Shown in pieces: positions 5,399 through 54,689 of a stretch of DNA of 64,000 bases. The position numbers and the translations under genes are program-made. Source of the DNA: Gibbula magus (Eukaryota > Mollusca > Gastropoda > Trochida > Trochidae). The notes beneath the pieces are model-generated. The model saw only the letters and a list, made by a program, of their open reading frames with translations, was not told the DNA's origin and ran no database searches. The DNA lies in the NCBI GenBank assembly GCA_936450465.1, contig OW388301.1:19821523-19885522 (forward strand). Direction: 5' to 3'. The first letter of the stretch is position 1; the number at the start of each line of letters is the position of its first letter.

Positions 5399-6478
5399 TT
5401 AAAACAAGGTAAAGAGAACATGCTTTTGAAAACGATTTCTAACCATTGGACATTCACTGATAGAAATAACATTAAAAGCGGTACAGTTCATGTGTATATG
5501 CATTGCTTTGAGGCTTGTTGATGCTTCAATTGTATAATAAAGGACCGATTTTTTAAGAAAAAATACAATTGGGTGTAGATCTTTGAAAGAATGACAGAGC
5601 TTCCTTTTTCTATCTCCCCGTCCTTGTCTGTTTATTTCAAATGTAAAACGGCCCCGTCTATTTGTCCAAGTGATCAATATCAGTGGTGGTGTATTGTAAA
5701 TACCAATATGATAGTATACCCCTCCAGTCATCAGCACACGATGTGTCTTACTAGATGATGGGTGGGCACAGCGAATCTTTCTCGGAATCCCTTTGCCTTC
5801 CGCCCAACAAATCTGATCGCCATCAATTACCATGCCAAAAATTAAAACAGGGTAGGGTCGATACCAAATTGTCTTCTCTTTACAGGTATGCAGAGGGGTT
5901 TTGACAATAGGATTATGTAGCATGTCGGATACGAAAAATAAATGATTTTTGTATATATTCATATATTTACCTGACAATTTACAAAATGTTACATTTGATG
6001 TATTCCCAATTACATGTTTGTATATGCTAATAGTATTTGACCAAAATAAGGTATCTGCATCTCTGTTATATACGATTGATGTTAACGTACCATGAACTTT
6101 AAGTCCAGTCCGTTGGAGTTTACTTGAGGCCGAGGATCCTTTGAACACTTCTCTCCATCCCTTGCTTCCTGTTATACTCACAATGATAAATTCCGAACCA
6201 TTTGTGTTAGGACCTGTGTTTTCAATACTCCTTCTTAATGAATCAATGAACGTTTTATCAAAGTGTCCAAAAAGTAAAGTCTTTCCAAACCTCTTTGCCA
6301 ACTCTTCTGTCTCCACGCCATGGTAGATACAACCAGAACTAGACTCACATCCAATATTACATTGGATTATAGCTCCGTGAATCTTCAGGTATACATTATT
6401 ATCATTGATCATGTTTTCTTTGGAAAACGTAGAATTGATCATCAAACAAATGCAGGTAACAATATTTCTTAAATTCAT
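5399..6478 (-). CDS. Secreted YWTD-like beta-propeller protein, copy A
   Basis: The 359-residue reading starts at the ATG at 6,478, which gives a short signal peptide (MNLRN, hydrophobic core IVTCICLMI, cleavage near residue 19). The frame is open to an upstream ATG at 6,577, but copy C has a one-base deletion there, so the inner start is preferred. From residue about 94 to 335 there is a series of ~40-residue units, each with an aromatic strand motif: LFWSN (143), LFFVSD (180), ICWAE (222), ITWTN (268) and LYYTI (312), plus a first unit near EFIIVS (96). This is the layout of a six-bladed LDLR class B/YWTD propeller. No EGF, LDL-A or membrane segment is seen, so a free secreted binding protein is inferred. 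No introns are visible. An upstream acceptor-like CTGTTTCTTAG precedes the start by 12 bases. The fold assignment rests on motif reading only, and the ligand is unknown. Confidence 0.65.
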   Translation of the reverse strand: MNLRNIVTCICLMINSTFSKENMINDNNVYLKIHGAIIQCNIGCESSSGCIYHGVETEELAKRFGKTLLFGHFDKTFIDSLRRSIENTGPNTNGSEFIIVSITGSKGWREVFKGSSASSKLQRTGLKVHGTLTSIVYNRDADTLFWSNTISIYKHVIGNTSNVTFCKLSGKYMNIYKNHLFFVSDMLHNPIVKTPLHTCKEKTIWYRPYPVLIFGMVIDGDQICWAEGKGIPRKIRCAHPSSSKTHRVLMTGGVYYHIGIYNTPPLILITWTNRRGRFTFEINRQGRGDRKRKLCHSFKDLHPIVFFLKKSVLYYTIEASTSLKAMHIHMNCTAFNVISISECPMVRNRFQKHVLFTLF

Positions 6479-6599
6479 TTCAATTAACTCTAAGAAACAG
6501 TTCACACCACACTGCAGGGTCTGAGCTACAGAGTGACGACTATTCTGGCTTAACAAGTCAGGAATAAAGTTTTTCAAAATCTCAATAATGATTATTGTA

Positions 6600-9500
6600 A
6601 ATGTAAAAGTCTAAGGATCATTTTTGTTACCCAACCAATGCAGAAACATGATTTTAAACCTCATTTATAATACACACATTTGAAGGTGAGGTTGATGTGA
6701 CATAAGATGTAAATATATAATATTCATAAAATCAATAGATTAATTGAAAGTCATGTACCTTTTTCTTGAAACAACTTTGAAATACATTTAAGGATTGCTT
6801 AACGAGTTGTGCGCATCATTGAAACTGCAAGTCATCATGTATTGAGCACTCTACTGGCAAGATTTGTTCTTTCAAGCATCAGTTGTGATTTCCAAAATGA
6901 AAAGACAGGCACTTTCTTTTTGTTTGGATAGTTTGAGACGTCAGAATGGACATTTTATCTATGTTGATCGTGAATTGGTTGCATTTGTTTGAGGGCTCTC
7001 GACCAACCAGAATCCTTGTAATAAGTGCAACAAAATATTTTTAAAATCATAAAGATAAAAATGGGTGTCTATCTAGAATGGGCAACAGCCCAAAATCCCT
7101 ATTAGGAAAAATATTGTATGTTACGAGCCTTGGTAACCTAAATATGTAGTTGTGTTTCCCTGATGCAGGATATATACTTCGATATCGTACAATGTCATCC
7201 TTCATTCTTTTTTGCACAAAACAACGTTGATTTCAAATATTTAAAAACAGAGTATTGGAATGTGTAAGTGAAGAAGATGAAATAATTTGGGACAACACAA
7301 TTCCTCCTTTTTATTGCTTTCATGTGACATAATTGGTTATCTTGTCATTGCCTAAGTTTTTCAGTTTGCCAGGATGTTTCAAACTACAATGACTTTTAAA
7401 GGAACCTCGTTGACGAAATTTGACTCATGTAATGAAGGTCGGCGAGACTATCTCACTTTAAAGACGAGAGCAGCTTCCCTTCCGCTCCAATGCAAAAGGC
7501 AACTTCAGTAGGACAAGGAGTCTACATGAGAACTGAACTGAACTCTCCCACCTCCTTTACACAGGTCACCTGTGTAGAACAATGTAGATGGATATTAGGT
7601 AAGTAAACGTTTGAATAAAACTGCCCTAGGGCCACATTTCAGTAAAAGTCGGGAGATTTCGATTCCCAGTGAACAAATTTTGACACTCTTGGTCATAGTA
7701 CAATTTGCCACAGAAACTTCACGACAGTTATTACGTCGTTAATGTTTTATAATATCTAATGTATATTTTGTGGAAGCTATCCCTTCAAATTGACGTGCTG
7801 CATAGTGTGATGTTAGTAAATTAGCAGTTCAGACTAGGACTGGACTGCTATAAGATTTTTTGCGGTTTTACATCGCCTCCTCAGCCATGTTTTGTTTTGG
7901 CTATAACTTTTTCCTAGTAAGGTTTTAAGAACTGATATATATACCTTCTTACTTATAACACTGGTGAATTTGTTTGACATTTTCACATTCAAGGTCAAAG
8001 GTCAAGTTCACGAGTTGACAAGATCCTATTTGTCTGAATATGAAGAGTTTTATAAAGTCTTGTTCAGTTTTACAGGTCGACTAAACAGAATACATGTACC
8101 TTTTACATATTGATAATCTTATAACAAGTGTTTCCATTACTGCTATTCTAAAATTAATTTTAAAAATCAGTTATTTGAAATGTTCAGTATTGTCTTTGAT
8201 ATGATATATAACTAATAGATGTACATGGTGCGCGTACAACTAGTATTATAAAACATCAGACATAGCATAGCTAAATGACTGGACATACATATTTGAAAAA
8301 TGTTTGCTTCTCACAAGCAAATGAACATTTAGAGATGCCCTCTGTTCAGGGCAAAATGGTTTCACCATCGCCACTTGAATGAATGGTTCAAATATTTCCG
8401 AACATTGATGATGTATCAATTGTATTCATATTAATTATCAACCTTTTGAAACTCGGAAAGGAAATATTGAATGGAAGTCACGCCTCAGATTCCTTAGATA
8501 ATGTGTAAAATGTTCTTTCTATCCTGTATGAAATACCAGAGTCCTAGAGGATATAGGGAACATTCATCCTGGGGAGTAAGTGACTAATATATACTGCAGC
8601 TTATACCTCTTAGTGACATTGAGGGACAGGTCCTCTTAGCTTCGGTACCAGAGGCATTAATGGACAACTTACCTCGTGCATCAATCAACATATTATTTCT
8701 GGCATCAATGGACAAACAGCTTCACTCACTTCGGGCAGTGTAAGAAACCAACTTTGCTGTTCTACATCTGCTTACATAATGTCATTAAGTACAAATTACA
8801 TACTGTATCCTAGACCTAACACATGGTTATATTAAAAACAAGACACGTTAGTTATATTTTTGAAGAAAGTACTATGCTAAATATTCAAAGTATTTTAACG
8901 GGTATTTTATGTGAAAGGGATACAACTGACATACATCACTAAAAATATGCAATACCGTGATTTGATCGGTAACTGCAATCGTTAAAAACTAGATAAGCGT
9001 TTGCAGGACACTGCAAAAGCACAGCAGTCTGGAAACTAAGGGTGTCGCCTTTAACTGTTTCGCCTTTTCCATAGCCACAATAAAATGGGCATTTTTAAAA
9101 ATAAATATACCACAAAACACAACTGAACATTAAACTCTAGAAATTGTCCGTGACCTTGACCTTTGACGTGGAATGATATCATATCAAATGAATTAACATG
9201 GGGCATAATCAACAGTGTTATTATGAGTTCTTAAAACCTATCTCTGCTTTCACAATTTAATCAAAGGGTTAAAATGGCCTTAACCCATATCACGTGACCT
9301 TGAACTTTAATTTTAACAACCAATGATCACTTTTCATTGTTTATTACAAAGTGTTAATAGTTAACATGAGGCTAGTTGCAAGAAGATGCTAAGTCATGAC
9401 CTCATTGTTAATTTGACCGTTGACTGATTGTTTTCCCTACATAGTTAGTGAACTGGAAACATTGATAAACATTACCGAAATACATTCTGATTCTGAACAT

Positions 9501-19810: not shown

Positions 19811-20743
19811 CTATTTTTTAAGAAAAAATACAATTGGGTGTAGATCTTTGAAAGAATGACAGAGCTTCCTGTTTCTATCTCCCCGTGCTTGTCTGCTGAT
19901 TTCAAATGTAATACGGCCCCGTCTATTTGTCCAAGTGATCAATATCAGTGGTGGTGTATTGTAAATACCAATATGATAGTATACCCCTCCAGTCATCATC
20001 ACACGATGTGTCTTACTAGATGATGGATGGGCACAGCGAATCTTTCTCGGAATCCCTTTTCCTTCCGCCCAACAAATCTGATCGCCATCAATTACCATGC
20101 CAAATATTAAAACAGGGTAGGGTCGATACCAAATTGTCTTCTCTTTACAGGTATGCAGAGGGGTTTTGACAATAGGATTATGTAGCATGTCGGATACAAA
20201 AAACAAATGATTTGTGTATATATTCATATATTTACCTGACAATTTACAAAATTTTACATTTGATGTATTCCCAATTACATGTTTGTATATGCTAATAGTA
20301 TTTGACCAAAATAAGGTATCTGCATCTCTGTTATATACGATTGATGTTAACGTACCATGAACTTTAAGTCCAGTCCGTTGGAGTTTACTTGAGGCCGAGG
20401 ATCCCTTGAACACTTCTCTCCATCCCTTGCTTCCTGTTATACTCACAATGAGAAATTCCGAACCATTTGTTTTAGGACCTGTGTTTTCAATACTCCTTCT
20501 TAATGAATCAATGAACGTTTTATCAAAGTGTCCAAAAAGTAAAGTCTTTCCAAACCTCTTTGCCAACTCTTCTGTCTCCACGCCATGGTAGATACAACCA
20601 GAACTAGACTCACATCCAATATTACATTTGATTATAGCTCCGTGAATCTTCAGGTATACATTATTATCATTGATCATGTTTTCTTTGGAAAACGTAGAAT
20701 TGATCATCAAACAAATGCAGGTAACAATATTTCTTAAATTCAT
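19811..20743 (-). pseudogene. YWTD-like beta-propeller protein, copy B, truncated
   Basis: Same gene as at 5,399-6,478, with the same inner ATG and signal peptide. A single change turns a serine codon (TCG in A and C) into TAG at 19,811-19,813, ending the protein at residue 310 instead of 359. This removes the strand motif of the sixth blade (LYYTI in the other copies) and the cysteine-containing tail, so the propeller could not close normally. The lost tail is still readable downstream in the same frame, which points to a recent nonsense change. B also has its own replacements near residues 282-293 (S, A and N where A and C have N, G and K). It may be a pseudogene, a short isoform or a sequencing difference. 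Confidence 0.6.
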
Positions 20744-23700
20744 TTCAATTAACTCTAAGAAACAGTTCACACCACACTGCAGGGTCTGAGCTACAGATTG
20801 ACGACTATTCTGGCTTAACAAGTCAGGGATAAAGTTTTTCAAAATCTCAATAATGATTATTGTAAATGTAAAAGTCTAAGGATCGTTTTTGTTACCCAAC
20901 CAATGCAGAAACATGATTTTACACCTCATTTATAATACACACATTTGAAGGTGAGGTTGATGTGACATAAGATGTAAATATATAATATTCATAAAATCAA
21001 TAGATTAATTGAAAATTATGTACCTTTTTCTTGAAACCACTTTGAAATACATTTAAGGATTGCTTAACAAGGTGTGCGTATCATTCAAAGTATAACTGCA
21101 AGTCATCATGTATTGAGCACTCTACTTGCAAGATTTGTTCTTTCAAGCATCAGTTGTGATTTCCAAAATGAAAAGACAGGCACTTTCTTTTTGTTTGGAT
21201 AGTTTGAGACGTCAGAATGGACATTTTATCTATGTTCATCGTGAATTGGTTGCATTTATTTGAGGGCTCTCGACCAACCAGAATCCTTGTAATAAGTGCA
21301 ACAAAATATTTTTAAAATCATAAAGATAAAAACGGGTGTCTATCTAGAATGGGCAACAGCCCAAAATCCCTATTAGGAAAAATATTGTATGTTACGAGCC
21401 TTGGTAACCTAAATATGTATTTGTGTTTCCCTGATTCAGGATATATACTTCGTTATCGTACAATGTCATCCTTCATTCTTTTTTGCAGAAAACAACGTTG
21501 ATTTCAAATATTTAAAATGAGAGCATTGGAATGTGTAAGTGAACAGGATGAAATAAGTTGGGACAACACAATTCCTCTTTAATATTGCTTTCAGCTGACA
21601 TAATTGGTTATCTTGTCATGGCCTAAGTTTTTCAGTTTGCCAGGATGTTTCAAACTACAATGACTTTTAAAGGAACCTCGTTGACGAACTTGGACTCATG
21701 TAATGAAGGTCGGCGAGACTATCTCACTTTAAAGACGAGAGCAGCTTCCCTTCCACTCCAATGCAAAAGGCAACTTCAGTAGGGCAAGGAATCTACATGA
21801 GAACTGAACTGAACTCTCCCACCTCCTTTACACAGGTCACCTGTGTAGAACAATGTAGATGGATATTAGGTAAGTAAACGTTTGAATAAAACTGCCCTAG
21901 AGCCACATTTCATTAAAAGTCGGGAGATTTCGATTCCCAGTGAACAAATTTGGACACTCTTGGTCATAGTACAATTTGCCACAGAAACTTCACGACAGTT
22001 ATTACGTCGTTAATGTTTTATGATATCTAATGTATATTTTGTGGAAGCTATCCCTTCTAATAGACGTGCTGCATTGGGTGATGTTAGTTAATTAGCAGTT
22101 CGGACTAGGACTGGACTGCTATAAGATGTTTTGCTGGTTTCCATCGCCTTTGTTTTGTTTTGGCTATAACTTTTTCCTAGTAAGGTTTTAAGAACTGATA
22201 TATATAACTTCTTACTTATAACCCTGGTGAATTTGTTTGACATTTTCACATTCAAGGTAAAAGGTCAAGTTCAGGAGTTGACAAGAACCTATTTGTCTGA
22301 ATATGAAGAGTTTTATAAAGTCTTGTTCAGTTTTACATGTCGACTAAACAGAATAAATATACCTTTTACATATTGATAATCTTATAACCATTACATTACT
22401 GTTTCCATTACTGCTATTCTAAAATTAATTTAAAAAATCAGTTATTTGAAATGTTTAGTATTGTCTTTGATATGATATATAACTAATAGATGTACATGGT
22501 GCGCGTACATCTAGTATTATAAAACATCACACATAGCCTAGCTAAATGACTGGACATACATATTTGAAAAATGTTTGCTTCTCACAAGTAAATGAACATT
22601 TAGATATGCCCTCTGTTCAGGGCAAAATGGTTTCACCATCGCCACTTGAATGAATAGTTCAAATATTTCCAAACATTGATGATGTATCAATTATTGTATT
22701 CATATTCATTATCAACCTTTTGAAACTCGGAAAGGAAATATTGAATGGAAGTCACGCCTCAGATTCCTTAGATAATGTGTAAAATGTTCTTTCTATCCTG
22801 TATGAAATACCAGAGTCCTAGAGGATATAGGGAACATTCATCCCGGGGAGTAAGTGACTAATATCTTCCTGTCTGCAGCTTATACCTCTTAGTGACATTG
22901 AGGGACAGGTCCTCTTAACGAGGCATTAATGGACAACCTACCTCGTGCACCAATCAACATACTACTTCTGGCATCAATGGACAAACAACTTCAAACACTT
23001 CGAGCAGTGTGAGAAACCAACTTTGCTGTTCTACATCTGCTTTGTAATGTCATTAAGTACAAATTCTATACTTAACATATGATGGTGTGTATAGACCAAA
23101 ACAAGTTAGTTATTACTTTATTATTTGAAGAAATTACTATGCTAAATATTCAAAGTATGTTAACGGGTATTGCATGTGAAAGGATACAATTGACATACAT
23201 CACTATAAATATGCAATACCATGATTTGATCGGTAACTGCAATTGTTAAAAAATAGCATATGCAGGACCCTGCAAAAGCACATCAGTCCGGAGACTAAGG
23301 GTGTCGCCTTTAACTGTTTTGCCTTTTCCATAGCCACAATAAAATGGACATTTTTAAAATAGATATACCAAAAAAGACAACTGAACATTAAACTCAAGAA
23401 ATTGTCCGTGACCTTTGACTTTGAATGATATCATATCAAAAGAATTGACAAAATGTTAATATGAGTTCTTCAAACCAATTTCTGATTTCAAAATTTGATC
23501 AAATGGTTAAAATGGCCATATCACGTGACATTGACGTTTACTTTTAACAACCGATGATCACTTTTCAGTCATGACCTCATTGTGAATTTGACCATTGACT
23601 GATTGTTTTCTCTACATAGTTAGTGAACTGGGAACATTGATATCCATTACTGAACTACATTCTGATTCTGAACATCTATTAAGGTAATAGTGTATGATCA

Positions 23701-32570: not shown

Positions 32571-32690
32571 GGTTCCAGGAACAGTCCCCCAGGTGATCTA
32601 AATCCACCAGGATGTGCCTCACTCTGGATAAGGTTCCAGGAAGAGCCCTCCATTTGGTTTACATCCACCAGGATATCCGCCACATGTCAG
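32571..32690 (-). repeat. 61-bp imperfect tandem duplication at the GON gene 3' end
   Basis: The last coding segment (GGTTCCAGGAAGAGCCCTCC on plus, at 32,632) is preceded at 32,571 by GGTTCCAGGAACAGTCCCCC, with a following CCACCAGGAT in both. The shift is 61 bases, so the second unit falls out of frame beyond the stop. In their own frames the units read PGGCKPNGGLFLEPYPE and PGGFRSPGGLFLEPYQTG, showing that a C-terminal coding unit was duplicated. Confidence 0.65.
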
Positions 32691-33854
32691 TTCTATAACG
32701 GTTCCATTAAACTTCCACTCGACAGGTTCCATTGCAGGTAGATATCCATACAGTTCCCATTTTTGTCCCTCCATCACTCTCCAGCCAGTGCCTCTCAGAT
32801 CGATGGTGAACCGTCCAATGACTCCACAGGATATCATCTGATTAGGGTGCGTGGTGTAACAATCATGAGCATATCCATATACCAGATCACTACTGCTGCC
32901 ACTAATGGAAGCAAATGTGTGGTCATTTATTACAAGAATAGATAGGCCATTATTTGGTTCTATTCTTATTTTCCTGAACCATATTTCACCCCCTTTACCT
33001 CTGCAATCACCAATAAGTTCTGTTTCTTCTCCACAATATAAATTAGACTTCTGTGGATATATCCCGTAATTTTCATTATGAAGTGTCAGAAACTCTTCAG
33101 GTTCCTCAGAGTCCATTTTGTGGCAATAGATGTTTGAGGTGTAGGATCTGTTGGTCAGAACAAGCCAGTATTCTCCATCAGGACTCTTCGGTAAATACTG
33201 TTTCACTTGTCTGCAGGAGGATAAGGCTGTACAGACAGATTCGGACCAGGTACCATTAGACAAGCATCGTACACTGTTAGATGCAGATGTGTATCAATTG
33301 TTACAGTGAAATGCTAGCTTGTCTCCAACAGCAGTGAATTCATTGCTTGAATTGATAAAGCCGTTCTCTACAATAGGTTTGCCAATACATTCTACTACTT
33401 GACACTCGTACTGACCATCAATGACTGGCACACATTGAGAGTTCGCTGAACATGAATGATCTGCACATGCACCTGCAAGTCTTTTGGGCCAGTTGGAGAT
33501 ATCAGAGAAAACCACATTGTTATACTTTGGCAGTGATATGTCGTTTGTGCTCGTCATGCTGTTCAGTTGACATTCTTCATTTTCCAGCTTGTAGTTGTAA
33601 GATTTACATCTATCTTTGTACAGACATAACTGCGCACACTGCATGATTCCACTTGCTGTGGTGATGACCATCAGAGAATGAGGAAGAATCTGATCCATCT
33701 GAATAACAGACAGGTTCCCGAAATGTGTACACATTTTGAGATCGGCTCTTCTTATTGCTAGTGATGCATGAACCTGTTGACAGCTGACAAAGAGAATCAA
33801 TATCGACTTTCCCTGCCACTTATTTTTTTCATCAAACAAACATCTTAGGTGCAT
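32619..33854 (-). pseudogene. Secreted PAN/EGF/sushi/GON-domain protein with in-frame TGA
   Basis: A single frame of 411 codons from ATG at 33,854, broken only by TGA at codon 187 (33,294-33,296). Domains in order: signal peptide about 1-31 (core SILILFVSC); PAN/apple-like region about 40-120 with Cys at 42, 73, 77, 83 and 95; a short EGF-like unit about 130-155; a sushi/CCP domain with the four expected cysteines at 156, 184, 197 and 208 and NGTW before the last; and a GON domain from 214 to 398 (PDGEYWLVL, IYCHKM, GGEIWFRKIRI, VYGYAHDCY, then CGGYPGGC). GON is the C-terminal domain of some ADAMTS proteases; no protease is present here. The TGA stands where sushi domains have the Gly of C-x-x-G-Y, so a GGA-to-TGA change is likely. 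No intron is needed. It may be a pseudogene, a null allele or a base-call error. Confidence 0.75.
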
Positions 33855-33892
33855 AGCAAATTCACGCTTGATCTATTGTAAATGGTTGATGC

Positions 33893-46692: not shown

Positions 46693-47767
46693 ATCCCCCG
46701 CCAGACACAAGAAATGAGAACAAGGGCAATAATTCAAGAAGAAATAATTGTGCGCTTCTCATTTTCTTTCCATTAAGGTAACGATATCCTCAAGCCACAC
46801 AACTGATTTGATGTTAAGCAATGTCTGAGAAAAGCTATATCCTTGGATACTTGAAACAGAGTCGAAAAAGAGGAACAAGGGGAATAACTCCGGAAAAAAT
46901 AATCACATGCTTCTTTTTTACAAACTCCATCAAGGTATCGATGGCCTTAAAGTACACACCAAATTTGGTTATCCTATCTTAAATAGTTTCTGAGAAAAGC
47001 TGTCCCCTTTGGTGATACCTTGAACAAAGTCCAAATGTACAGAACAAGGGCAATAACTCCGCAAAGATTAATTGTGTGCTTCTCATTTTCGAACTCCATC
47101 AAGGTACTTATGCCCTCAAGCCATCCACTAAATTGGGTAATCCTATCTTAAATAGTCTCTGAGAAAAGCTGTCCCCTTTAGAGATAGCATGAACCGAGTC
47201 CAAACATACGGAACAAGGGCAATAACTCCGGAAAATATAATCACACGGTTCTTATTTTCGAACTCCATCAAGGTATTTATGTCCACAAGCAACACACCAA
47301 ATTTGGAAACTCTATCCTAAACAGTTTCTGAGAGAAAATGTGTCCCTTAAGAGATACCATGAACAGAGTCCAAAAATACGGAACAAGGGCAATAACTCTG
47401 GAAAATATAATAACACGTTTCTTATTTTCGATCTCCATCGAGGTATTTATGTCCACAAGCCACACACCAAATTTGGAAACTCTATCTTAAACAGTTTCTG
47501 AGAAAAGCTGTCCCCTTTGGAGATACCATGAACAGAGTCCAACAATACGGAACAAGGGCAATAACTCCGGAAAAAATAATCCCACGTTTCTTATTTTCGA
47601 ACTCCATCGAGGTATTCATGTCCACAAGCCACACACTAAATTTGGTTGTCCTATCTTAAATAGTTTCTGAGAAAAAGTATCCCCTTTATAGCGCACGGAC
47701 GGACGGATGGACGGACGGACGGACGGAGCCCAAACGTATATCCCCCTTCCACTTCGTGGCGGGGGAT
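46693..47767. mobile_element. Pearl/Helentron-associated-like non-autonomous element, copy C
   Basis: Architecture: ATCCCCCGCCA at 46,693-46,703 and its inverted copy TGGCGGGGGAT at 47,757-47,767; between them about six tandem ~170-bp units, each with AACAAGGGCAATAACTC (46,720; 46,876; 47,042; 47,212; 47,384; 47,551); then a (GGAC)n tract (47,696-47,728); then a terminal hairpin. This order (core tandem repeats, tetranucleotide tract, 3' hairpin, subterminal inverted repeats) is that of bivalve pearl elements and Helentron-associated elements. It lies just left of the (CACT)n array, where A and B have no such element. Confidence 0.65.
47696..47728. repeat. (GGAC)n tract in the pearl-like element
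   Basis: About eight GGAC/GGAT units between the tandem core repeats and the terminal hairpin, the position such tetranucleotide tracts take in pearl-type elements. Confidence 0.8.
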
Positions 47768-49692: not shown

Positions 49693-50772
49693 TTAAAACA
49701 AGGTAAAGAGAACATGCTTTTGAAAACGATTTCTAACCATTGGACATTCACTGATAGAAATAACATTAAAAGCGGTACAGTTCATGTGTATATGCATTGC
49801 TTTGAGGCTTGTTGATGCTTCAATTGTATAATAAAGGACCGATTTTTTAAGAAAAAATACAATTGGGTGTAGATCTGTGAAAGAATGACAAAGCTTCCTT
49901 TTTCTATCTCCCCGTCCTTGTCTGTTTATTTCAAATGTAATACGGCCCCGTCTATTTGTCCAAGTGATCAATATCAGTGGTGGTGTATTGTAAATACCAA
50001 TATGATAGTATACCCCTCCAGTCATCAGCACACGATGTGTCTTACTAGATGATGGATGGGCACAGCGAATCTTTCTCGGAATCCCTTTGCCTTCAGCCCA
50101 ACAAATCTGATCGCCATCAATTACCATGCCAAATATTAAAACAGGGTAGGGTCGATACCAAATTGTCTTCTCTTTACAGGTATGCAGAGGGGTTTTGACA
50201 ATAGGATTATGTAGCATGTCGGATACAAAAAACAAATGATTTGTGTATATATTCATATATTTACCTGACAATTTACAAAAATTTACATTTGATGTATTCC
50301 CAATTACATGTTTGTATATGCTAATAGTATTTGACCAAAATAAGGTATCTGCATCTCTGTTATATACGATTGATGTTAACGTACCATGAACTTTAAGTCC
50401 AGTCTGTTGGAGTTTACTTGAGGCCGAGGATCCTTTGAACACTTCTCTCCATCCCTTGCTTCCTGTTATACTCACAATGAGAAATTCCGAACCATTTGTT
50501 TTAGGACCTGTGTTTTCAATACTCCTTCTTAATGAATCAATGAACGTTTTATCAAAGTGTCCAAAAAGTAAAGTATTTCCAAACCTCTTTGCCAACTCTT
50601 CTGTCTCCACGCCATGGTAGATACAACCAGAACTAGACTCACATCCAATATTACATTGGATTATAGCTCCGTGAATCTTCAGGTATACATTATTATCATT
50701 GATCATGTTTTCTTTGGAAAACGTAGAATTGATCATCAAACAAATGCAGGTAACAATATTTCTTAAATTCAT
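49693..50772 (-). CDS. Secreted YWTD-like beta-propeller protein, copy C
   Basis: This 359-residue protein is collinear with copy A, with about eight amino-acid differences and at least five silent ones counted by eye. All the aromatic blade motifs are kept. Upstream of the inner ATG a run of five T in A and B is four T here (near 50,865), which breaks the frame to the outer ATG while leaving the protein from MNLRN intact. This supports the inner start in all copies. The flanking minisatellite (49,205-49,455) and upstream AT-rich region are also shared with A and B. Regulation is not evident; a weak TATA-like stretch lies about 230 bases upstream. Confidence 0.65.
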   Translation of the reverse strand: MNLRNIVTCICLMINSTFSKENMINDNNVYLKIHGAIIQCNIGCESSSGCIYHGVETEELAKRFGNTLLFGHFDKTFIDSLRRSIENTGPKTNGSEFLIVSITGSKGWREVFKGSSASSKLQQTGLKVHGTLTSIVYNRDADTLFWSNTISIYKHVIGNTSNVNFCKLSGKYMNIYTNHLFFVSDMLHNPIVKTPLHTCKEKTIWYRPYPVLIFGMVIDGDQICWAEGKGIPRKIRCAHPSSSKTHRVLMTGGVYYHIGIYNTPPLILITWTNRRGRITFEINRQGRGDRKRKLCHSFTDLHPIVFFLKKSVLYYTIEASTSLKAMHIHMNCTAFNVISISECPMVRNRFQKHVLFTLF

Positions 50773-51589
50773 TTCAATTAACTCTAAGAAACAGTTCACA
50801 CCACACTGCAGGGTCTGAGCTACTGATTGACGTCTATTCTGGCTTAACAAGTCAGGGATAAAGTTTTCAAAATCTCAATAATGATTATTGTAAATGTAAA
50901 AGTCTAAGGATCCTTTTTGTTACCCAACCAATGCAGAAACATGATTTTAAACCTCATTTATAATACACACATTTGAAGGTTAGGTTGATGTGACATAAGA
51001 TGTAAATTTATAATATTCATAAAATCAATATATTAATTGAAAATAAGGTACGTTTTTCTCGAAACCACTTTTAAATACATTTTAGGATTGCTTAACGAGT
51101 TGTGCGCATCATTCAAAGTATAACTGCAAGTCATCATGTATTGAGCACTCTACTGGCAAGATTTGTTCTTTCAAGCATCAGTTGTGATTTCCAAAATGAA
51201 AAGACAAACACTTTCTTTTTGTTTGGATAGTTTGAGACGTCAGAATGGACATTTTATCTATGTTCATCGTGAATTGGTTGCATTTATATGAGGGCTCTCG
51301 ACCAATCAGAATCCTTGTAATAAGTTCAACAAAATATTTTTAAAATCATAAAGATAAAAATGGGTGTCTATCTAGAATGGGCAACAGCCAAAAATCCCTA
51401 TTAGGAAAAATAGTGTATGTTACGAGCCTTGGTAACCTAAATATGTAGTTGTGTTTCCCTGATGCAGGATATATACTTCGTTATCGTACAATGTCATCCT
51501 TCATTCTTTTTTGCACAAAACAACGTTGATTTCAAATATTTAAAATCAGAGTATTGGAATGTGTAAGTGAACGGGATGAAATAATTTGG

Positions 51590-51790: not shown

Positions 51791-53128
51791 TGGGACAACA
51801 CAATTCCTCCTTTTTATTGCTTTCAGGTGACATAATTGGTTATCTTGTCATTGCCTAAGTTTTTCAGTTTGCCAGGATGTTTCAAACTACAATGACTTTT
51901 AAAGGAACCTCGTTGACGAAATTTGACTCTTGTAATGAAGGTCGGCGAGACTATCTTACTTTAAAGACGAGAGCAGCTTCCCTTCCGCTCCAATGCAAAA
52001 GGCAACTTCAGTAGGACAAGGAGTCTACATGAGAACTGAACTGAACTCTCCCACCTCCTTTACACTGGTCACCTGTGTAGAACAATGTAGATGGATATTA
52101 GGTAAGTAAACGTTTGAATAAAACTGCCCTAGAGCCACATTTCAGTGAAAGTCGGGAGATTTCGATTTCCCAGTGAACAAATTTTGACACCCTTGGTCAT
52201 AGTACAATTTGCCACAGAAACTTCAAGACAGTTATTACGTCGTTAATGTTTTATAATATCTAATGTATATGTGACAGGGCATATTTTATATAATGCCTCT
52301 ATCATACAATGTTATGGTCATTTCATGATGTGTTAAATGTTCATTTGTCCCTAATTGTCTGTGTTTGCCGTTGAACGCCGCCTCTTAACATTTCCACCTT
52401 TTCTCTTCTGTTTCTGGAGCCTTGTCAACAAGGATTTCCCTTCATTTCATTCTATTTTTAGCTGTCTTTCCCAACTAGTGGGCTTTCCCTATTCTATTTA
52501 TAGGTCACATCAAAGGATTCCTTTGATGTGTTACCTGTCTCCTAATTGGCCACTGTGTCCTCTGTCCTCACTTCCTCTGCCTACCTGTTTTCCACCTCAC
52601 TCCAATTGCTGTTGTTGAGGTGGAAACATCATTTCCTATTTCCAGGTGTGGCCATTTCCTAATCTATTTTAATCTGCCTCATTACTTTATAAATTTCTTA
52701 AATAAGGTGCATAATGTCTTTAAACATAATATTTGTAAATCATTAAAGTAATATTTAAATGATAACATATAAATTTTAGTGAATAGATTAATATATTAGA
52801 TTGATAGTTTGAATAAACATGGCTAGACCATGTGCTTTTTATAATAATATAATTTCGAAGTGTAGTATGAGTATTTAACTATTTAAATGCCCTGTGATAT
52901 ATTATGTGCAATACAAATGTGATGTTAATTGTTGAAACTATTATTTACTTGATTGTTAAATTTTAAGACTCCAATTGCTGTTGTTGAGGTGGAAACATCA
53001 TTTCCTATTTCCAGATTTACCTCAGCAACAGCCTCATCAACCTCAATAAATTTCATTCATCATCAACATCGTTTTGTCGTCTTGATCAACGCGGCCCAGT
53101 GCTGAACAAATACACCCGGCCACAAATT

Positions 53129-53141
53129 TGGCGCCCAACGT
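53129..53141 (+). other. Primer-binding-site-like motif
   Basis: TGGCGCCCAACGT is found four bases after the CCACA end of the left LTR-like segment. It matches the start of primer-binding sites complementary to the 3' end of lysine tRNA in retroelements. The downstream bases (CGGTCC) depart from that tRNA, so the priming tRNA is uncertain. Confidence 0.5.
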
Positions 53142-53331
53142 CGGTCCGGGACAATTCCTTAATGTCACTGCACCTTTAAGTCCTTTTCAGGTTTGTAAAT
53201 CCTTATAGGTATGTAAGTCCTTCATAGGTATATCTCCCGAATTCTTGACTCGAGGACGAGTCACTTCGTGGAGGGTGTGTGTGTGGCAGGGTGAGGTCAA
53301 TAGCGTTCCTACTAGCTTGGACTAGTGGGAT

Positions 53332-53402
53332 GTCCCTTTAACTCAACTGGTAGAGCGTCTGTCTCCCACCCGGAGGTCCCGGGTTCGAATCCCCTGGATG
53401 TT
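53332..53402 (+). tRNA. tRNA-like sequence (CCC anticodon), likely a pseudo-tRNA or SINE head
   Basis: A 71-base segment has an A-box-like TAACTCAACTGG (53,339) and a perfect B box GGTTCGAATCC (53,382). It folds into D, anticodon and T arms with a loop CTCCCAC, giving anticodon CCC (Gly). The acceptor stem pairs poorly, two T-stem pairs are mismatched and one anticodon-stem pair is mismatched. It is therefore probably a Pol III promoter-bearing pseudo-tRNA. It lies inside the short 3' LTR-like end of the retroelement at 52,270-53,429. Confidence 0.5.
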
Positions 53403-54689
53403 GAAATTTGTATTTTCACTCCTGCTACATATATTTTGTGGAAGCTATCCCTTCTAATAGACGTGCTGCATTGTGTGATGTTAGTTAATTAGCAGTTCAG
53501 ACTAGGACTTGACTACTATAAGATTTTTTGGCGGTTTTCCATCGCCTCCTCAGCCATGTTTTGTTTTGGCTATAACTTTTTCCTAGTAAGGTTTTAAGAA
53601 CTGATATATATATAACTTCTTACTTATAACCCTGGTGAATTTGTTTGACATTTTCACATTCAAGGCCAAAGGTCAAGTTCACGAGTTGACAAGATCCTAC
53701 TTGTTCAGTTTTACAGGTCGACTAAACAGAATACATGTACCTTTTACATATTGATAATCTTATAACAAGTGTTTCCATTACTGCTATTCTAAAATTAATT
53801 TTAAAAATCAGTTATTTGAAATGTTTAGTATTGTCTTTGATATGATATATAACTAATAGATGTACATGGTACATCTAGTAATATAAAACATGAGACATAG
53901 CCTAGCTAAATGACTGGACATACATATTTGAAAAATGTTTGCTTCTCACAAGCAAATGAACATTTAGAGATGCCCTCTGTTCAGGGCAAAATGGTTTCAC
54001 CATCGCCACTTGAATGAATGGTTCAAATATTTCCGAACATTGATGATGTATCAATTGTATTCATATTAATTATCAACCTTTTGAAACTCAGAAAGGAAAT
54101 ATTGAATGGAAGTCACGCCTCAGATTCCTTAGATAATGTATAGACTGTTATTTCTATCCTGTATGAAATACCAGAGTCCTAGAGGATATAGGGATCATTC
54201 ATCCTGGGGAGTAAGTGACTAATATATACTGCAGCTTATACCTCTTAGTGACATTGAGGGACAGGTCCTCTAAGCTTCGGTACAAGAGGCATTAATGGAC
54301 AACTTACCTCGTGCACCAATCAACATATTATTTCTTTCATCAATGGACAAACAGCTTCACTCACTTCGGGCAGTGTAAGAAACCAACTTTGCTGTTCTAC
54401 ATCTGCTTACATAATGTCATTAAGTACAAATTACATACTGTATCCTAGACCTAACACATGGTTATATTAAAAACAAGACACGTTAGTTATATTTTTGAAG
54501 AAAGTACTATGCTAAATATTCAAAGTATTTTAACGGGTATTTCATGTGAAAAGGATACAACTGACATACATCACTATAAATATGCAATACCGTGATTTGA
54601 TCGGTAACTGCAATCGTTAAAAACTAGATAAGCGTTTGCGGTACACTGCAAAAGCACAGCAGTCTGGAAACTAAGGGTGTCGCCTTTAA

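Follow-up and report, generated by a model that had tools for sequence, protein, structure and literature searches.

Helenus (TRIMp3) is a Pol III-type TRIM whose LTRs carry tRNA-derived A and B boxes; it was tied to Gypsy mainly by the similarity of its primer-binding site (PBS), and Pol III transcription from its boxes is listed as unproven (Kojima 2024, PMC10886601). Tandem arrays are reported there from zebrafish, and the molluscan Helenus elements that it describes all come from pteriomorph bivalves. According to the same source, it is not known how the dependence of TRIMs on an autonomous element is maintained, LTR homology seeming unnecessary, and nothing points to an autonomous partner of Cassandra, a plant TRIM with a 5S rRNA promoter in its LTRs. 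A 2026 meeting report mentions Helenus no more than in passing (PMC12859917).

Elements recombined at or near their LTRs have been described in several systems. Template-switch insertions of the Triticeae contain three LTRs, of which the outer ones are similar; they are single insertions with an intact duplication, for which two co-packaged RNAs have been invoked (Sabot and Schulman 2007, PMC1950507). Pairwise recombination within the Onsen family of Arabidopsis is likewise ascribed to reverse transcription of co-packaged RNAs, with the LTR cases lying mostly at the first template switch and others in the coding part (PMC5668417). For HIV-1 LTR recombinants, intermolecular second-strand transfer has been discussed from the recombination patterns of related genomes (PMC5651808).

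We describe here an insertion in the trochid gastropod Gibbula magus that resembles Helenus in its right part but, unlike Helenus, has an unrelated LTR, identified below as that of a Gypsy element, on its left. It shares the intact duplication and single insertion of the Triticeae cases but has two LTRs of unrelated families, one parent being a Pol III-type TRIM; in contrast to the Onsen recombinants, its exchange lies between families and at the PBS, and in contrast to HIV-1, its LTRs are plainly unrelated. Helenus hybrids whose two LTRs are unrelated did not come up in our literature searches, outside of which most subscription journals lay, and a search by the name Helenus, not aimed at gastropods, found no gastropod study. 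LTR swapping is said to have been described in soybean by Du et al. in 2010.

Anatomy and target site of the insertion

The window, i.e. the whole stretch of 64,000 nucleotides analysed, lies on chromosome 13 of G. magus and contains three paralogous blocks, the third of which holds an insertion of 1160 bp (52270–53429). TATA flanks the insertion on both sides (52266–52269 and 53430–53433), and both other paralogous copies carry the empty site TAATG-TATA-TTTTG; the same TATA on both sides together with the empty site in two paralogues indicates one insertion with a 4-bp duplication. All parts of the insertion are read on the forward strand. The left LTR (52270–53124, 855 bp) runs from TGTGACAGGG to CCGGCCACA, and its best other genome copy is 93% identical over positions 1–855. 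It is followed by a spacer, AATT (53125–53128), which can be read as the AA of the left-hand family and then the beginning of a Helenus-type TTTGG, and by the PBS, TGGCGCCCAACGTCGGTC (53129–53146), a variant found in some Helenus copies. A non-coding, Helenus-type internal stretch (53147–53261), 85–97% identical to the internal parts of paired Helenus elements (81% over part of it in L013), leads to a purine-rich tract, CACTTCGTGGAGGGTGTGTG (53262–53281), which precedes the right LTR (53282–53429, 148 bp, TGTGGCAGGG to CTGCTACA; best other genome copy 97%). We take the PBS to be of the tRNA-Lys type.

The two LTRs have the terminal bases alone in common (TGTGACAGGG versus TGTGGCAGGG), and none of the six open frames of at least 120 aa (stop to stop) in the window overlaps the insertion. 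Thus, the TATA-flanked insertion absent from two paralogues, the short distance between PBS and polypurine sites with no coding part, and the mismatch between the 855-bp and 148-bp LTRs, all of which a first-pass annotation had claimed, are confirmed. Rfam listed no 5S rRNA match for either the window or the element, and the C/D snoRNA-like matches inside the left LTR were all below the gathering scores.

The right end and the Helenus family

The assembly (140 contigs, 1,470,318,725 bases) was searched with 153 bases of the right end. Among the 1000 first-look candidates, 40 were scored and all 40 were matches, so the family must be larger than the portion seen here. These matches represent 34 distinct places, all of which were opened: 17 are paired LTRs, 12 are solo LTRs, two are hybrids (the window copy and L019), and the three others are an element without its 3' LTR (L006), a nested one (L027) and a broken one (L030). 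In the six pairs with both LTRs scored, the LTRs are spaced 283–309 bp from start to start, and the two LTRs of a pair agree at 134/145 to 145/145 positions (six of seven pairs compared, L034 being dropped), giving a TRIM of about 435–460 bp in this genome. Exact 4-bp duplications were found at 16 of the 29 places scanned (the window, L006, L019, L027 and L030 were left out), a proportion that leans towards matches because the scan takes the best of several boundaries.

The paired and solo LTRs and the TRIM size identify the 148-bp right end as a TRIM LTR. Its tRNA-like A and B boxes would also be expected of a tRNA-derived SINE or tRNA pseudogene that had landed beside an LTR, a reading for which we see practically no room: 17 of the 34 places are LTR pairs around a PBS/PPT stretch, another 12 are solo LTRs, and exact 4-bp duplications recur. 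The first-pass annotation had named an invariable occurrence as an independent SINE or tRNA pseudogene as the outcome that would speak against it, and had called for a genome search and a check of target duplications; both came out in favour of an LTR, with duplications of 4 bp, as in the TATA of the window copy. Its comparison with the Cassandra principle, carried over to a tRNA-like unit in an animal, is supported. Cassandra is similar in its short non-coding form with a Pol III-type internal promoter in the LTR (PMC10886601) but differs in being a plant element with a 5S-like unit, and no 5S rRNA-derived sequence was recognized by Rfam here.

For the tRNA-like part of the right LTR (53333–53402, limits set by eye), we use the customary names and consensus of the A and B boxes. 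Rfam matched the tRNA family at 53336–53400 with 17.4 bits, below the gathering score of 29, and ARAGORN detected none anywhere in the window. Of the two boxes of the window copy, B (GGTTCGAATCC) is intact, whereas A reads TAACTCAACTGG instead of the TAGCTCAACTGG of L005 and L082, the two other copies checked. The tRNA-like part noted in the first-pass annotation is thus real but degenerate; with its altered A box, the window copy may serve Pol III poorly as a template.

The right-end TRIM fits Helenus as Kojima defines the family (PMC10886601): there are two LTRs with tRNA-derived sequence (17 of 34 places paired, with both boxes in L005 and L082), a PBS and a PPT close together between them and no coding part, a Gypsy-like PBS and, as in animal Helenus, 4-bp duplications (16 of 29 loci, and TATA in the window). 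The window copy itself departs from this definition in that only its right LTR is of Helenus type, the left one coming from the Gypsy family. As in the zebrafish arrays (PMC10886601), evenly spaced Helenus junctions occur in G. magus: seven leader junctions at exact 271-bp steps (C9:27309691–27311344) are arranged like a tandem array of LTR-internal units, and two-copy runs of leader junctions are present on C7, C10 and C18. Whereas the molluscan elements of Kojima (PMC10886601) are from pteriomorph bivalves, G. magus would extend molluscan Helenus to gastropods.

The left end and Ty3/Gypsy family A

A search with 857 bases of the left end, in which 40 of 168 candidates were scored, gave 42 matched stretches from the scored candidates, the best other copy being 93% identical. 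On C8 and C13 the family, named A, has proper LTR pairs at a spacing of about 9.1 kb, with the PBS behind the first LTR, the PPT ahead of the second and TATA outside both, and several single copies have 4-bp duplications (e.g. CAAT, ATAA and TATG). In the copy at C8:45167187/45176284, a 487-aa frame has a PNMA match slightly over the cut-off (E 3.4e-06; 27 bits, cut-off 25), and a 566-aa frame contains RVT_1 (E 4.1e-38) and RNase H domains and has Ty3 as its best solved relative (E 1.8e-83); a 336-aa frame between them has no Pfam match. The anatomy of the A pairs, the PNMA match and the RT/RNase H nearest to Ty3 identify the 855-bp left end, by sequence comparison, as the LTR of a Ty3/Gypsy family, the Gag and RT/RNase H between paired LTRs being read from this one copy. 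The LTR is presumably of the Pol II type.

A further candidate pair, C2:37315545/37324954, was rejected, since the second LTR has the left flank of the first and no PPT and the region is rearranged; the surrounding segment, C2:37313050–37335500, contains several A LTRs, some full and others partial, whose flanks are repeated, indicating a rearranged or duplicated A region. On C10, three A LTRs with the same flanks at exact 4180-bp steps (4923050, 4927230 and 4931410) represent a tandem duplication. The A LTR also contains a perfect 47-bp direct repeat (52599–52645 and 52968–53014 in the window), which is kept in the full-length A LTRs compared.

The junction at the PBS

In the copies compared, A elements have CCGGCCACA-AAT-TGGCGCCCAACGTGGGGC and then CGCT or TGCC, and Helenus elements read CTACA-TT-TGGCGCCCAACGTGGGGCCGGGAC, or CGTCGGTCCGGGAC in some copies. 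The window copy reads CCGGCCACA-AA-TTTGGCGCCCAACGTCGGTCCGGGAC, i.e. it follows A through the LTR end plus about two bases and then Helenus, including a Helenus variant of the PBS. The PBS TGGCGCCCAACGT is common to A and Helenus, the sequence shared around it amounts to about 18–20 bp, and both families show 4-bp duplications. L018 and L033 are among the Helenus copies that carry the variant of the window, with CGGTC; it was found at 5 of 74 Helenus junctions versus none of the 11 A copies displayed with their PBS. By these letters, two families, Ty3/Gypsy A and Helenus, are joined at the PBS in the window copy. The earlier reading of the insertion as an LTR-element derivative with mismatched LTRs stands, the mismatch being that of a Helenus x Ty3/Gypsy hybrid; the type with a tRNA-like unit in its LTR is already known as Helenus (PMC10886601).

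Recurrence of the hybrids

Junctions were counted as exact pattern matches in the assembly, so that all counts are lower bounds; backward-pattern controls gave zero for the A-LTR/Helenus leader, Helenus/Helenus and A/A patterns. At least six exact matches were found for an A-LTR end, PBS and Helenus leader (the window and five other places), compared with at least 74 Helenus-to-Helenus and at least 17 A-to-A junctions; we opened every hybrid, 8 of the 74 Helenus-to-Helenus junctions and 6 of the 17 A-to-A junctions, and the rest were classed by their junction letters alone. All six hybrid places have an A-type LTR, or the right part of one, followed by a Helenus internal part and a Helenus LTR. 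Since L083 and L084 have both of their flanks in common (90% and 96%), these two represent one insertion duplicated with its surroundings, and the six places correspond to five insertions: A x H1 (window), A x H2 (L086), A' x H1 (L084 and L081) and A' x H2 (L082). The A' LTR is about 75–76% identical to A in L082 and L084, and H2 is a Helenus-like type whose LTR is 83–86% identical to H1 over about 125 bp; both types are set by LTR sequence in the hybrids, whereas coding frames between paired LTRs are seen in A, and LTR pairs in H1. The partial left end of L081 is 67–69% identical to A, which makes its placement with A' less sure. In L081 and L086 the A LTR was matched over positions 543–855 and 490–855 only, so the left boundaries were not reached by the match; clean 4-bp duplications are present in two of the five insertions, the window and L082 (TTTT/TTTT, low in information), and L084 has CATG/CAAG. 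When tandem neighbours on C7, C9, C10 and C18 were merged by hand, the 74 Helenus junctions became 65, and a Gypsy LTR is therefore found on about 7% of intact Helenus leader junctions (6/80, or 5/70 after merging the arrays and the segmental duplication).

Two insertions, nested or adjacent, followed by a deletion between two PBS copies could give a similar arrangement, and one place does look nested: at L037 (= L027, C16), Helenus follows immediately on the PBS of an A'-type LTR, is flanked on either side by CCAAC and comes with a partial, inverted Helenus LTR, and this place was rejected as a hybrid. The nested Helenus occupies 4640–5060 of L037, its 5' LTR being inverted and partly deleted. 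Unlike two separate insertions, however, the outer ends in the window share one duplication and an exact empty site. For the window copy such an origin is refuted by the empty sites, barring two insertions at the same TATA, and we regard it as highly improbable in general.

Replacement of the left LTR of an ordinary Helenus by an A LTR after integration, through DNA recombination or gene conversion, could make use of the 18–20 bp common to the two families around the PBS. Common sequence on the left is limited to about 10 terminal bases, and still both the window copy and L082 have an intact duplication; the hybrids also recur in combinations of A or A' with H1 or H2; we therefore consider this course very unlikely. 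We give slightly less credence still to a self-propagating family in which the A-LTR/Helenus internal/Helenus LTR structure is copied from older hybrids. The architecture is present at six places, and L081 and L084 are alike in their A'-type and H1-type parts, as such a family would have it. First-strand transfer, however, needs matched R regions, and the unmatched ones of a hybrid should block its normal course; moreover, different LTR subfamilies are combined with different Helenus types.

Formation of the hybrids

During reverse transcription, the minus strand provides the right LTR, whereas the left one stems from plus-strand strong-stop DNA annealing at the PBS (PMC5651808). An element with a Helenus internal part, a purely Helenus LTR on its right and a pure A LTR on its left is what would be expected if A strong-stop DNA annealed to a Helenus minus strand, for which both RNAs would be needed in one particle. 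We thus propose, with a good degree of confidence, that the hybrid is the one-step product of co-packaging and then intermolecular second-strand transfer. One particle would hold the RNA of A and that of the Helenus TRIM; the Helenus minus strand would be copied in the usual way and supply the right LTR of Helenus together with the internal part up to the PBS; A plus-strand strong-stop DNA would anneal to the Helenus PBS and, upon extension, yield the whole A LTR on the left; and an integrase, presumably that of A, would accept both ends and insert the hybrid with a 4-bp duplication. A would then be the enzyme source for Helenus, and the hybrid points to A as its likely mover. What counts against this proposal is that second-strand transfer in HIV is described as generally intramolecular (PMC5651808) and that clean 4-bp duplications are confined to two of the five insertions.

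With such a transfer, junctions should fall at the PBS alone, which is where they are seen, and hybrids on the PPT side are not predicted. No exact match was found from the Helenus PPT to the A LTR or from the A PPT to the Helenus LTR; these zeros are weakened because normal PPT junctions were not counted as a yardstick and A' LTR starts lie outside the patterns. Reciprocal hybrids, with a Helenus LTR and an A internal part, are also predicted, and narrow and broad patterns gave no exact match; few would be expected among 17 A junctions, zero having a probability of 0.27 at a rate of 6/80. The difference between 0/17 and 6/80 is not significant (Fisher p 0.59), so the absence of reciprocal hybrids is not surprising.

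Copy-choice would yield the same product and junction, with the PBS coming from Helenus as seen: the minus strand on Helenus RNA would jump at the shared PBS to the A 5' leader, copy U5-R, jump to the 3' end of the A RNA and copy U3, with priming at the A PPT trimming the end. This course requires one more jump and a further PPT priming, and second-strand transfer is the simpler explanation for junctions confined to the PBS; we hold copy-choice to be unlikely, while ranking it first among the alternatives.

Kojima linked Helenus to Gypsy mainly by PBS similarity (PMC10886601), whereas the hybrids link it to a specific Gypsy family: through their two unrelated LTRs, they connect a single Helenus lineage with a single family and with second-strand transfer at the PBS. 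Junctions between a Gypsy LTR and a TRIM leader suggest that partners might be assigned without LTR homology in other genomes, Cassandra included. We see about an even chance that, in this snail, Helenus cDNA regularly receives the entire 5' LTR of the Gypsy family through intermolecular second-strand transfer. If this is true, hybrids of Gypsy and Pol III-type LTRs would offer TRIMs and autonomous elements a way to trade LTRs and gain new partners.

Other features of the window

Each of the three paralogous blocks has a long open frame on the minus strand (5399–6610, 19811–20875 and 49693–50874), the three being alike by eye. Two adjacent open frames at 32619–33872, also on the minus strand, are cysteine-rich and extracellular-looking by eye. 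A direct repeat at 46836–47643 consists of four copies at steps of about 169 bp.
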